DNA of 22,435 bases from IMG/VR virus record IMGVR_UViG_3300021960_000569, positions 1-22,435 of that record; one strand, 5' to 3'. Origin of the DNA: a virus. Below the pieces are notes generated by a model, which was not told the origin of the DNA, ran no database searches, and saw only the letters and a program-made list of their open reading frames with translations. How positions within the stretch are numbered: position 1 is the stretch's first letter; each line of letters opens with the position of its first letter. Made by a program: the position numbers and the translations under genes. Of the stretch, positions 4,366 through 6,220 are shown one piece after another.

Positions 4366-4470
4366 TTATAGTAAAATAGCTCCTATTATAAAACCTAAAA
4401 CAAAGACAACACCGTCTTGTTTAGGATTAGTTTTAATGTGATGTATTAAATTATTTAGGTAATTCTTCAT
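4366..4470 (-). CDS. Membrane micro-protein, 34 aa
   Basis: A 34-codon frame with ATG at 4470 and TAA at 4366-4368. The N-terminal half is polar and basic (MKNYLNNLIHHIKTNPKQDG); the C-terminal half is one hydrophobic span (VVFVLGFIIGAILL). A GAGGA ribosome-binding site lies about ten bases upstream, inside the end of the small-terminase gene, which it overlaps by 20 bases. It fills the gap between that gene and the 69-aa gene. The N-in/C-out arrangement would fit a tiny membrane-anchored phage protein such as a holin-like or inner-membrane regulator. Nothing here proves a lysis role. Confidence 0.6.
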   Translation of the reverse strand: MKNYLNNLIHHIKTNPKQDGVVFVLGFIIGAILL

Positions 4471-4864
4471 AATCTGCTTCCTCAATATTAATTGTTTGTT
4501 TTTCTGGTAATATAAAAATACCACCGCCTGTGTTGTGATTTACATCAAGTTTATCTTGTTTGCCTAATCCAACCCTATCAAGGATGGTTTGAGCTGCTTG
4601 AAGTTTAACGTTAGCTTGTGGCATAGCGTTATCACTTTGCATAACTTCAACGAGTTTAAAAGCAGCAGAAGGGGCTTCCCTTGCTAGGATGTTTGAGGCT
4701 AAATCTACTATTTCTTGTCTAAGACTCTTTATTACTTGGTAGTGATTTCCTGCATACCCGGCAAGTTCGGCTGAAAGTTTAAGATTTCCTTTGGTCTCAA
4801 TAAGATTATTAAGAAAATCTTGTTGTTTATCTGTTAGTTTTCGTTCTGTTGAAGGTAAACTCAT
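4451..4864 (-). CDS. terS: Terminase small subunit (DNA recognition)
   Basis: A 137-aa protein whose N-terminal part (LTDKQQDFLNNLIETKGNLK, then LSAELAGYA) reads as the helix-turn-helix of the small terminase. The central AQTILDRVGLGKQDKLDV motif is typical of TerS C-terminal regions. The protein would recognise the packaging site and recruit large terminase, which lies five small genes downstream on the same strand. It is the first gene of the late minus-strand operon. A consensus promoter ends seven bases before the ATG, so the transcript probably begins at or next to the start codon and there is no room for a Shine-Dalgarno. The next internal Met is far downstream, so this start is kept. 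Confidence 0.8.
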   Translation of the reverse strand: MSLPSTERKLTDKQQDFLNNLIETKGNLKLSAELAGYAGNHYQVIKSLRQEIVDLASNILAREAPSAAFKLVEVMQSDNAMPQANVKLQAAQTILDRVGLGKQDKLDVNHNTGGGIFILPEKQTINIEEADYEELPK

Positions 4865-4927: not shown

Positions 4928-4956
4928 TTGACAAAACACGAAAATAACTCTATAAT
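4928..4956 (+). promoter_or_regulatory. Consensus sigma-70 promoter facing a gene-free region
   Basis: TTGACA (4928-4933), a 17-base spacer and TATAAT (4951-4956) form a perfect consensus on the plus strand, with start expected near 4963. No convincing plus-strand gene follows until 6309. It faces away from the late promoter; the two -35 boxes sit inside a 9-bp inverted repeat (TTTGTCAAG 4893-4901, CTTGACAAA 4927-4935). Confidence 0.8.
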
Positions 4957-5522
4957 AACACTTAGGTGTGCCGGGGTTAAATGTATATTCTACTGACCTA
5001 TTAGACCCGACCTAACCTGCCAAAACCTGTCGAACCCGACCAAACTCCTTAACAACCAAAATTGCTCAGAATGTATAAGTATTAGTATATATATACGGGT
5101 GGGGGTGGGGTGCTCCTGCCTACCCCCTAAGCTTCACAAACTCTGCAGAGTTTTATAGGTTTAGGGAGTTTTCACCGAGAAACCTGCCAAGATTTACCAA
5201 ACTCTATAGAGTTTGACTAGCTCTGAAAGAGCTACCGAGAGATTTACAGGGAAAATATGGAGATTGTGAAGCTAAACAATAAGATTTAAACTCTGCAGAG
5301 TTTACCAAGGATTGTTATATTGTCGAGCTTTCTAAGAGTTTTCCTTTGGAAACTAAGGTCGATGGTCATCCTATTGTTTTCCGTTCAGCACAGAGCTTTA
5401 CAGAGCCCCACAAAGCTATGCTTTCCTGCACAGCTCGACACAGCTCGATATGCTTTTCAGCGTGGGGAAATCGCATAAGTATTATGCAGGTGTTTCGGTA
5501 GGGAAATTACAGACAAAAAAAA
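4957..5522 (+). ncRNA. Candidate structured non-coding RNA / control region
   Basis: About 560 bases without a credible gene on either strand, downstream of a consensus plus-strand promoter and rich in inverted repeats. Seen: a GC-rich stem at 5101-5127; a 10-bp long-range stem AGCTTCACAA (5130-5139) with TTGTGAAGCT (5264-5273) enclosing several hairpins; a 9-bp stem TGTCGAGCT (5321-5329) with AGCTCGACA (5432-5440); CCCCAC (5406-5411) with GTGGGG (5462-5467); and small hairpins at 5337-5354, 5412-5424 and 5473-5487. That this is a functional RNA is inference; the repeats could equally be operators or part of an origin. No known RNA family was identified. Confidence 0.45.
5138..5303. repeat. 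Three near-identical 16-bp palindromes
   Basis: AAACTCTGCAGAGTTT at 5138-5153, AAACTCTATAGAGTTT at 5199-5214 and AAACTCTGCAGAGTTT again at 5288-5303. The arms are identical; only the central four bases differ (TGCA, TATA, TGCA), and each centre is itself a palindrome. A related TAGCTCT-GAA-AGAGCTA lies at 5218-5234. They could be operator sites for a dimeric regulator or RNA hairpins with self-complementary loops. Confidence 0.8.
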
Positions 5523-5538
5523 CCCCTCGAATGAGGGG
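5515..5538 (-). terminator. Intrinsic terminator of the 90-aa gene
   Basis: On the minus strand a 6-bp GC-rich stem (CCCCTC 5523-5528 with GAGGGG 5533-5538, 4-base loop) is followed by eight T (5515-5522). It lies 24 bases after the stop codon and separates this gene from the late operon. In the plus direction only three T follow, so it should act mainly on the minus strand. Confidence 0.85.
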
Positions 5539-5548
5539 CTTTGAAGTG

Positions 5549-5862
5549 AGCTCTTTAGAGCTTAGCCAAGACTTACAAGCTTCTTGTAAGCTCTCATAGC
5601 TGTCAAATCTGCCTTCGGCAAACTCTTTAGCGAAAGTATCTTCGATACTTGTCCCTGTGTAAGTGGGGACTTGGTATCGTTTAGCTTCGCTAAAAAATGA
5701 CCTCGAACAGTGCCGAACTTGATGTCCTTCGGACAGTTCTTAGCTTTGCTAAAGTGCATTGCAATCCTTTGGATTTGACCATAAGTTGCAGTTGCTTTAG
5801 GGTTTTTCACTTCAAACGTAGTTTGGTTTGACATATTTTTTTCTCCATAGTCCCAAGGGACT
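5549..5862 (-). repeat. Series of short hairpins across the 90-aa gene and its leader
   Basis: Perfect short inverted repeats with small spacers: 5549-5562 (AGCTCT/AGAGCT), 5573-5589 (7-bp arms), 5610-5620 (TGCC/GGCA), 5634-5650 (AAGTATC/GATACTT), 5651-5670 (GTCCC/GGGAC), 5680-5694 (TTTAGC/GCTAAA), 5723-5735 (TGTCC/GGACA), 5740-5752 (TTAGC/GCTAA), 5763-5775 (AATCC/GGATT) and, in the leader just before the ribosome-binding site, 5849-5862 (AGTCCC/GGGACT). Most loops read GAA or AAA on the mRNA strand. Confidence 0.75.
5562..5834 (-). CDS. Small basic protein, 90 aa, in a hairpin-packed gene
   Basis: A monocistronic minus-strand gene with its own promoter (5897-5926) and terminator (5515-5538). 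The chosen ATG at 5834 has GGAG eight bases upstream; the frame is open to an earlier ATG at 5888, but that would place the start at the predicted transcript end. The protein (MSNQTTFEVKNPKATATYGQ ... RAYKKLVSLG) is strongly basic, rich in Lys and Ser, with no cysteine pair and no membrane span. I do not recognise it; nucleic-acid binding is a guess from charge and position in the control region. The coding DNA holds about nine short inverted repeats with mostly three-base spacers (see findings), so the mRNA could fold into a chain of hairpins. The plus-strand promoter at 4928 would produce antisense RNA across it. Confidence 0.75.
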   Translation of the reverse strand: MSNQTTFEVKNPKATATYGQIQRIAMHFSKAKNCPKDIKFGTVRGHFLAKLNDTKSPLTQGQVSKILSLKSLPKADLTAMRAYKKLVSLG

Positions 5863-5896
5863 AAGTTAGTGCTTGACGACATTGCCAAGCCATTAC

Positions 5897-5926
5897 ATAG
5901 TAATCCGATTTACCACAAAATGTCAA
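5897..5926 (-). promoter_or_regulatory. Promoter of the 90-aa gene
   Basis: Minus strand: perfect TTGACA (5921-5926), 18-base spacer, TACTAT (5897-5902, four of six). Start would be near 5890, giving a leader of about 56 bases that contains the 14-bp inverted repeat at 5849-5862. Confidence 0.6.
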
Positions 5927-5936
5927 ACTTTTTTTT

Positions 5937-6036
5937 CACCCTTTAGGGTGTTTTGCTCAAAATTAGCCAAAAATTGCCCCAAAAATCACCACGAACCACC
6001 CAAAATCCCTAAAGTCTAGTAAGACTTTAATTTTTT
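5937..6036 (+). terminator. Plus-strand terminator with possible competing (attenuator-like) pairing
   Basis: TAAAGTCT (6010-6017) pairs with AGACTTTA (6022-6029) across a 4-base loop and is followed by six T (6031-6036), a good plus-strand intrinsic terminator. Upstream CTTTAGGG (5941-5948) is perfectly complementary to CCCTAAAG (6007-6014), which overlaps the terminator's left arm, so the two structures exclude one another. CTTTAGGG also lies in a local hairpin CACCC-TTTA-GGGTG (5937-5950) followed by four T. There is no gene in this stretch. Confidence 0.6.
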
Positions 6037-6130
6037 ACCCAATCTTTACGCCTGTGTATATATACTTACGCATAAGACTTATGTAAATAGGATTTCCTAT
6101 GGTTAGGCGAAAGTCAATACTATTATGCGT

Positions 6131-6193
6131 AAATCGTGTGTAAATATTTACGATAAATCGCATGTAAACTTTATGCAGAAATCGTCATGTAAA
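6131..6193. repeat. Three iterated 14-15 bp repeats on a 24-bp period
   Basis: AAATCGTGTGTAAA (6131-6144), AAATCGCATGTAAA (6155-6168) and AAATCGTCATGTAAA (6179-6193) begin exactly 24 bases apart. A 12-bp palindrome GTAAATATTTAC (6140-6151) overlaps the first. TTATGC precedes the first and third copies, and AAATCGCAT recurs at 5468-5476. They lie just upstream of the first early promoter and could bind a regulator or an initiator protein. The rest of 6037-6220 is AT-rich and holds no gene. Confidence 0.7.
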
Positions 6194-6220
6194 TTTAAAA
6201 CTATATGTGCACGTTTCTGC

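Follow-up and report, generated by a model that had tools for sequence, protein, structure and literature searches.

The g90 locus

The window, the whole stretch of 22,435 nt that we analysed (IMG/VR record IMGVR_UViG_3300021960_000569, positions 1 to 22,435), is a contig of the HMO-2011/HTVC115P type. Its TerL matches that of Pelagibacter phage HTVC115P at 67% and that of HMO-2011 at 47%, and it shares homologous TerL and TerS and the same divergent gene layout with HMO-2011-type and HTVC115P-like phages. The group was described in PMC9038755, where hairpins, palindromes and inverted repeats go unmentioned.

Between the divergent early genes and terS lies g90 (5562..5834, minus strand, ATG at 5834), a hairpin-saturated gene for a basic protein of 90 aa, for which AlphaFold2 predicts a confident four-helix domain (pLDDT 87). 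The gene has a sigma-70 promoter (TTGACA-18-TACTAT, 5897..5926, minus strand) and an intrinsic terminator (5519..5542, minus strand), past which the hairpins go on. Homologues, found in 22 virus contigs by a first search and in 53 by a later one, always occupy this position and read in the direction of terS; none was found in the named-phage collection or the GTDB genomes searched. The protein had no significant match in Pfam, PHROGs, the PDB sequences or a Foldseek fold search. g90 is a real gene but an orphan.

The terS-like gene (4451..4864, minus strand; promoter 4900-4872), which resembles genes annotated as putative terminase small subunits, forms a hairpin-poor flank. Opposite to it, a consensus sigma-70 promoter (TTGACA-17-TATAAT, 4928..4956, plus strand) faces the noncoding region and the hairpins, whose boundary is marked by a conserved element, CCCCACCCCCACCC-GTATATATATAC (5085..5110, minus strand), with a G-run on the plus strand.

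Two longer proteins (L171:1226-1795 and L179:12707-13285), which have a K/A/P-rich tail and hairpins immediately upstream, may contain a domain distantly like g90 (ATAKQIYFIGRHFA...). Contig IMGVR_UViG_3300046167_000092 carries the g90 locus near both of its ends (L247/L248), which points to a genome of about 51 kb that is circular or permuted.

The hairpin array

The densest part of the array (5138..6029) holds about 20 perfect hairpins, with arms of 4-9 bp and effective loops of 3-4 nt, and spans the g90 promoter, leader, ORF and terminator as well as noncoding DNA. The individual hairpins are given here as read on the minus strand. Upstream of the g90 promoter are TAAAGTCT-TACT-AGACTTTA (6010..6029) and CACCC-TAAA-GGGTG (5937..5950), the second being terminator-like on the plus strand. 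The leader hairpin TAGTCC-CTTG-GGACTA (5848..5863) adjoins the ribosome-binding site. Within the ORF follow CAAAC-TAC-GTTTG (5813..5825), AATCC-AAA-GGATT (5763..5775), TTAGC-AAA-GCTAA (5740..5752), TGTCC-GAA-GGACA (5723..5735, kept in most type A homologues), TTTAGC-GAA-GCTAAA (5680..5694), AAGTATC-GAA-GATACTT (5634..5650), TGCC-GAA-GGCA (5610..5620, with 4-bp arms) and CTTACAAG-AAG-CTTGTAAG (5572..5590). AGCTC-TAAA-GAGCT (5549..5562) lies 3′ of the stop codon, and the noncoding part (5138..5304) includes TAAACTCTGCAGAGTTTA, TAGCTCT-TTC-AGAGCTA, CAAACTCTATAGAGTTTG and AAACTCTGCAGAGTTT.

The first-pass annotation had reported hairpins in the 90-aa gene and its leader, and all of them are present where it placed them, including the leader hairpin at 5848-5863 and the four loops (5728-5730, 5686-5688, 5641-5643 and 5614-5616) whose minus-strand sequence is GAA. 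In the ORF, seven perfect triloop hairpins have arms of 5 bp or more, against 0.9 expected after codon shuffling; among 1000 synonymous-codon shuffles of g90 the maximum was five triloop hairpins, so that 0/1000 reached seven. The folding energy of the g90 mRNA likewise departs from that of synonymous-codon shuffles (global z = -5.8). Since both hairpin count and folding energy go beyond the codon shuffles, the observation is real and does not derive from codon or amino-acid content. Counts also exceeded the shuffles in every type A homologue tested, which bears out the earlier suggestion of joint selection on nucleic-acid structure and protein; by these counts, it is synonymous and conservative choices of codon that create the hairpins within g90.

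Two other parts of that description had to be revised. The array is not a feature of the gene alone, for the hairpins run from about 6030 to 5138 and make this the main hot spot of the contig. Nor is GAA a special signal, a candidate we rejected: homologues have AAA, TTC, TTT, TAC and other loops at equivalent places, and loops vary among GNA and ANA types on either strand. The counterpart of the 5634..5650 hairpin in L002, for example, has a TTC loop between identical arms (a K to S change), and that of the 5610..5620 hairpin in L003 is CTGCC-AAA-GGCAG, with an AAA loop and 5-bp arms. The common codon register of the four GAA loops is explained by where the ORF hairpins are centred, 45 of 53 on codon position 1 or 2 and 8 on position 3, whereas chance hairpins of other ORFs are centred on position 1 or 2 in 14 of 30 cases. 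Such centring leaves the wobble bases to do the pairing.

The whole array measures ~1.3 kb. It begins upstream of the g90 promoter, takes in leader, ORF and terminator and extends through noncoding DNA towards terS; each long array-bearing genome examined has a single such hot spot (arms of at least 6 bp, loops of 0-4 nt). Over 21 array-bearing loci, which are partly related, so that shared ancestry inflates the counts and they are not independent trials, we counted 107 hairpins in the ORF against 7.0 expected from composition, 271 in the noncoding g90-terS stretch against 26, 52 in the upstream region against 10.9, and 3 in terS against 11.6. Hairpins upstream of the g90 -35 box numbered 39 against 5.4 expected. 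The excess is confined to loops of at most 4 nt (in the g90-terS stretch of the 21 loci, hairpins with loops of 5-10 nt numbered 21 against 27 expected, no excess); by arm length it sets in at 5 bp, peaks at 6 bp and declines beyond. The hairpin region has no tandem repeats beyond trivial ones, and Rfam, consulted for a known RNA family, gave sub-gathering chance matches only. Because the hairpins saturate the region beyond g90, the feature belongs to the region, and the coding sequence has been overwritten by it.

Conservation, turnover and distribution

Hairpins homologous to those of the noncoding part (5138..5304) covary in relatives. At one homologous place the variants TTAACC-ATA-GGTTAA, TCAACC-ATA-GGTTGA, TCAATC-ATA-GATTGA and TTAAGC-ATA-GCTTAA occur. 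Between sister pairs, 115 noncoding paired positions had been altered on both sides with pairing intact, against 314 unpaired changes (both directions counted in each case); since unpaired changes outnumber compensated ones, the hairpins turn over. In an alignment of 23 sequences, 7 of 11 reference hairpins beat all 200 partner-shuffles for paired cells. The compensation in the arms looked for among homologues is thus found, and the comparisons indicate that folding rather than sequence is what is conserved in the array.

At 48 of 56 distinct loci, those whose g90 has a short N-terminus, the array is present in both ORF and noncoding DNA. It is present in neither at the other 8, where g90 has an extra N-terminal segment (LSKELEKFLKSNPKVLEELG...) and a core that shares as much as ~60% identity with the window protein. 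ORF and noncoding region gain or lose hairpins together, and the existence of the extended homologues without hairpins means that the protein does not need them. The array is also absent from the sampled isolates HTVC115P, HTVC103P, HTVC033P and HMO-2011 (partial records), and is not essential to HMO-2011/HTVC115P-type phages. All array loci are metagenomic; the isolates are the named phages only.

In the L192 clade a second 90-aa ORF downstream of g90 (L192:959-1231, and in L190) is hairpin-saturated and unrelated to g90; it has a weak match to phrog_4074 (E 4e-4), to which no function is attached.

Loop grammar and the level of selection

Triloops of GNA or ANA type on either strand make up 75% in the noncoding array, 84% in the ORF and 88% in an unrelated ORF family described below, against 35% in the control (P = 4e-15, 7e-10 and 4e-7, respectively), and a 5′-C...G-3′ closing pair is favoured (C:G 87:7 and 35:12 against 109:91 in chance hairpins; P = 8e-12 for 87:7 against 109:91); these tests were chosen after the pattern was seen, and those on loop and closing pair were run again on the unrelated ORF family. 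The loops of GNA/ANA class are equally frequent on both strands (40:49 and 17:19), and excess local folding is equal for the two strands.

The most serious alternative to a DNA-level role is that the hairpins are selected as RNA, in the g90 mRNA or in a long untranslated early leader from the 4928-4956 promoter, where they might block Rho, RNases or translation or form a structured regulatory RNA. The promoters make it probable that transcription crosses the array on both strands, mRNA folding reaches z = -5.8, and many loci have a leader hairpin near the ribosome-binding site (15 against 0.7 expected). Against this, G.U pairs are not preferred over A.C on either transcript (G.T against A.C, 76:67 and 23:21 in sister pairs and 55:69 in the alignment), and hairpins with one mismatch or wobble stand at background level in the noncoding DNA even though perfect ones abound. 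The loop type is strand-symmetric and belongs to the DNA GNA/ANA class, to which an RNA triloop table assigns no stability bonus, and the structure is not bounded by the transcript, with hairpins both past the g90 terminator and upstream of its promoter. Autoregulation by the product through its own mRNA, RNase control and a translational throttle, all proposed in the first-pass annotation, are disfavoured on the same grounds, and we discarded the idea that the array serves mainly as an autoregulatory mRNA structure. An RNA-level origin of the pattern seems to us unlikely.

The absence of strand preference in wobble, loop type and folding excess, together with a loop and closing-pair grammar that is that of stable DNA mini-hairpins and of the phage N4 hairpins, is what leads us to read the array at the level of DNA rather than mRNA. 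The sequence statistics argue strongly for selection on the folding capacity of the DNA.

A mutational origin, with little or no selected function, would have template switching or snap-back synthesis perfect inverted repeats at a site that is often single-stranded. It would account for the perfection of the arms and the scarcity of single-mismatch forms, for the exact inversion of the L002 loop from GAA to TTC, and for the high turnover of hairpins between clades. Template switching does not, however, predict arms this short, with their threshold-like rise to a peak at 6 bp and fall thereafter, and the strong closing-pair and loop preferences also speak against it. Spacing and position stay similar while the sequence changes, and the array is wholly absent in relatives that retain the gene and the promoter. 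We regard such an origin as quite improbable.

Recurrence in ~65-68-kb phages

A scan with the pattern AAACTCTnTAGAGTTT was of value as a lead to other arrays; among the matches listed, most are by arithmetic due to chance. A hairpin-saturated, K/P/Q-rich ORF of 311 aa was found at L162:1286-2221, L153:8314-9174 and L293:4001-4933, on contigs of 67.7, 66.8 and 64.9 kb, respectively. TerS, TerL and g90 had no match at the array loci tested (L162 and L153). In this family 21 of 24 distinct triloops are of the GNA/ANA type, and the closing base is C in 24 hairpins, T in 12 and G in 1 (arms of at least 6 bp). The same grammar in an unrelated 311-aa ORF is the strongest sign that this grammar has a function and did not simply come down with a single gene.

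An origin-like setting

The minimum of cumulative GC skew falls at the array in six sequences (window 6052, G001 13433, G002 6692, G003 16344, G016 4644 and G017 33077; G012-G014 are not among them), although divergent transcription alone could produce such a minimum. The promoter directed away from terS into the region is found in 94 of 95 relatives, with 11-12 of 12 consensus positions and a spacer of 16-18 bp. In 57 relatives a G-run lies about 95-180 nt downstream of it, beside TATATATA, and promoter and G-run are followed by a stretch without long ORFs. Promoter and G-run also occur without the array, and the promoter also without g90. By sequence, the 4928-4956 promoter region is a candidate early promoter or R-loop origin.

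This arrangement resembles T4 R-loop origins such as oriF, where a promoter is followed by an AT-rich unwinding element (PMC3016281); in the present phages the consensus promoter is followed by the G-run and TATATATA. T4 origins differ in needing no hairpins, none being mentioned in PMC3016281, whereas here the promoter element is also found without the array.

The skew minimum, conserved promoter and G-run at the array make a role in replication origin our best guess, in which we have moderate confidence, and the likeness to an R-loop-type origin underlies the proposal that the array folds when the DNA is opened or underwound. Among the options offered in the first-pass annotation, that of a DNA structure with a use in replication fits best. 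The best overall explanation, to which we would give slightly less than an even chance, is a DNA mini-hairpin array that serves replication proteins at a phage origin. The array consists of about 20-30 DNA mini-hairpins, each with a perfect ~6-bp stem and a loop of 3-4 nt, usually d(C-[G/A]NA-G) on one strand or the other, and covers ~1.3 kb of the early/late intergenic region together with the small gene there. In the proposed mechanism, the hairpins would most likely extrude, or fold as the strands part, under negative supercoiling or origin opening. Beside the promoter, the G-run and the AT element, the stem-loops would stay unannealed and free of SSB, and may offer replication proteins a place to load or anchor.

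Other roles for DNA structure, as a packaging or pausing signal near terS or as decoy or counter-defence DNA, are very unlikely in our judgement. The array does lie beside terS in all phages of the g90 group, and the cassette has a strong early-type promoter; close relatives with alignable TerL have no array, however, and no terS match was found at the array of the unrelated ~65-68-kb phages.

Comparison with known systems

The array hairpins are most like the promoter hairpins read by the N4 virion RNA polymerase (Schitoviridae), which have a 5-7-bp stem, a 3-nt loop, 5′-C...G-3′ closing and G..A loop bases. This closing pair and these loop bases are required for extrusion of the N4 hairpins at physiological supercoiling (PMC4496689). 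The array has the N4-type stem, triloop, C-G closing pair and purine-N-A loop, a match that could suggest N4-type promoters or sites for a phage RNA polymerase or hairpin-recognising transcription protein. N4, however, has three early promoters of conserved sequence read by vRNAP, whereas here about 20-30 hairpins with unrelated stems run through a gene. Apart from the loop grammar there is no conserved sequence of the kind that N4 vRNAP needs: the stem and flank bases that the polymerase recognises (-11 purine, -10G, -8G and +1C) were not found, and the stems of the array are mutually unrelated. No giant virion RNA polymerase was evident among the window ORFs by length, and the few large ORFs scanned in relatives yielded no recognisable RNA polymerase. 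Ordinary sigma-70 promoters serve the locus, and both hairpin orientations are packed into coding sequence. Hairpin promoters are thus a highly improbable reading. Equally little can be said for double-stranded palindromic sites bound by a dimeric protein such as the small, basic g90 product: AAACTCTnnAGAGTTT recurs in the noncoding part, but no sequence is common to the ORF arms, spacer length varies between 0 and 4, and the preferences for C:G closing and for GNA/ANA loops would be left unexplained.

The mini-hairpin array that we prefer also resembles the extra-stable DNA mini-hairpins of the d(GCGAAGC) type (GNA triloops): GCGAAGC itself occurs at 5684-5690, and the d(C-RNA-G) class is found throughout. 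Those mini-hairpins, unlike the array, are known chiefly as tools in physical chemistry and aptamer work, and we found no description of a natural kb-scale array in the part of the open-access literature covered. The ssDNA origins of phages G4, alpha3 and phiX have 1-3 conserved noncoding stem-loops that are read by primase and not covered by SSB. The array would share with them several short, SSB-free stem-loops on ssDNA at the start of replication; it differs in belonging to dsDNA phages and in having many variable hairpins that include coding sequence. The injection-stop region of phage T5 is palindrome-rich noncoding DNA with a structural role. It is likewise palindrome-rich phage DNA, but it lies in the terminal repeat, outside coding genes, and we know of no loop grammar there.

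We see about an even chance that the array represents a new class of phage cis-element: a kb-scale DNA mini-hairpin array, defined by grammar and not by sequence, running through coding DNA at or near an origin in at least two unrelated marine phage groups (the g90 group and that of L162, L153 and L293). Selection on DNA folding, as opposed to RNA folding or protein binding, is seldom visible in sequence, and here it would shape a whole coding gene. The array is a test case for the formation of small hairpins in living DNA at native supercoiling, which to our knowledge has so far been seen mainly at N4 promoters. It would also locate a probable replication origin in marine phages that are abundant and in which, as far as we know, no start of replication has been mapped. 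There is a warning in it too: selection at the DNA level can give phage genes strong signals of mRNA structure.

Some neighbouring features deserve mention. Very long ORFs were seen in G012, of unrelated phages (4160 aa, L294-L297, 22663-35145), with no Pfam or PHROG match, and in G013 (3772 aa, L298-L301, 41628-52946). On a 49-kb contig (TerS 58%), palindromes with arms of up to ~20 bp and small loops lie upstream of terS (L172:1749-2115) and adjoin an ORF with an AT-hook-like GRPKG tail. In the DNA that separates the array of the window from its first early gene, a 24-bp direct repeat, TATTATGCGTAAATCGTATGTAAA, is present in three iteron-like copies (6121-6194).
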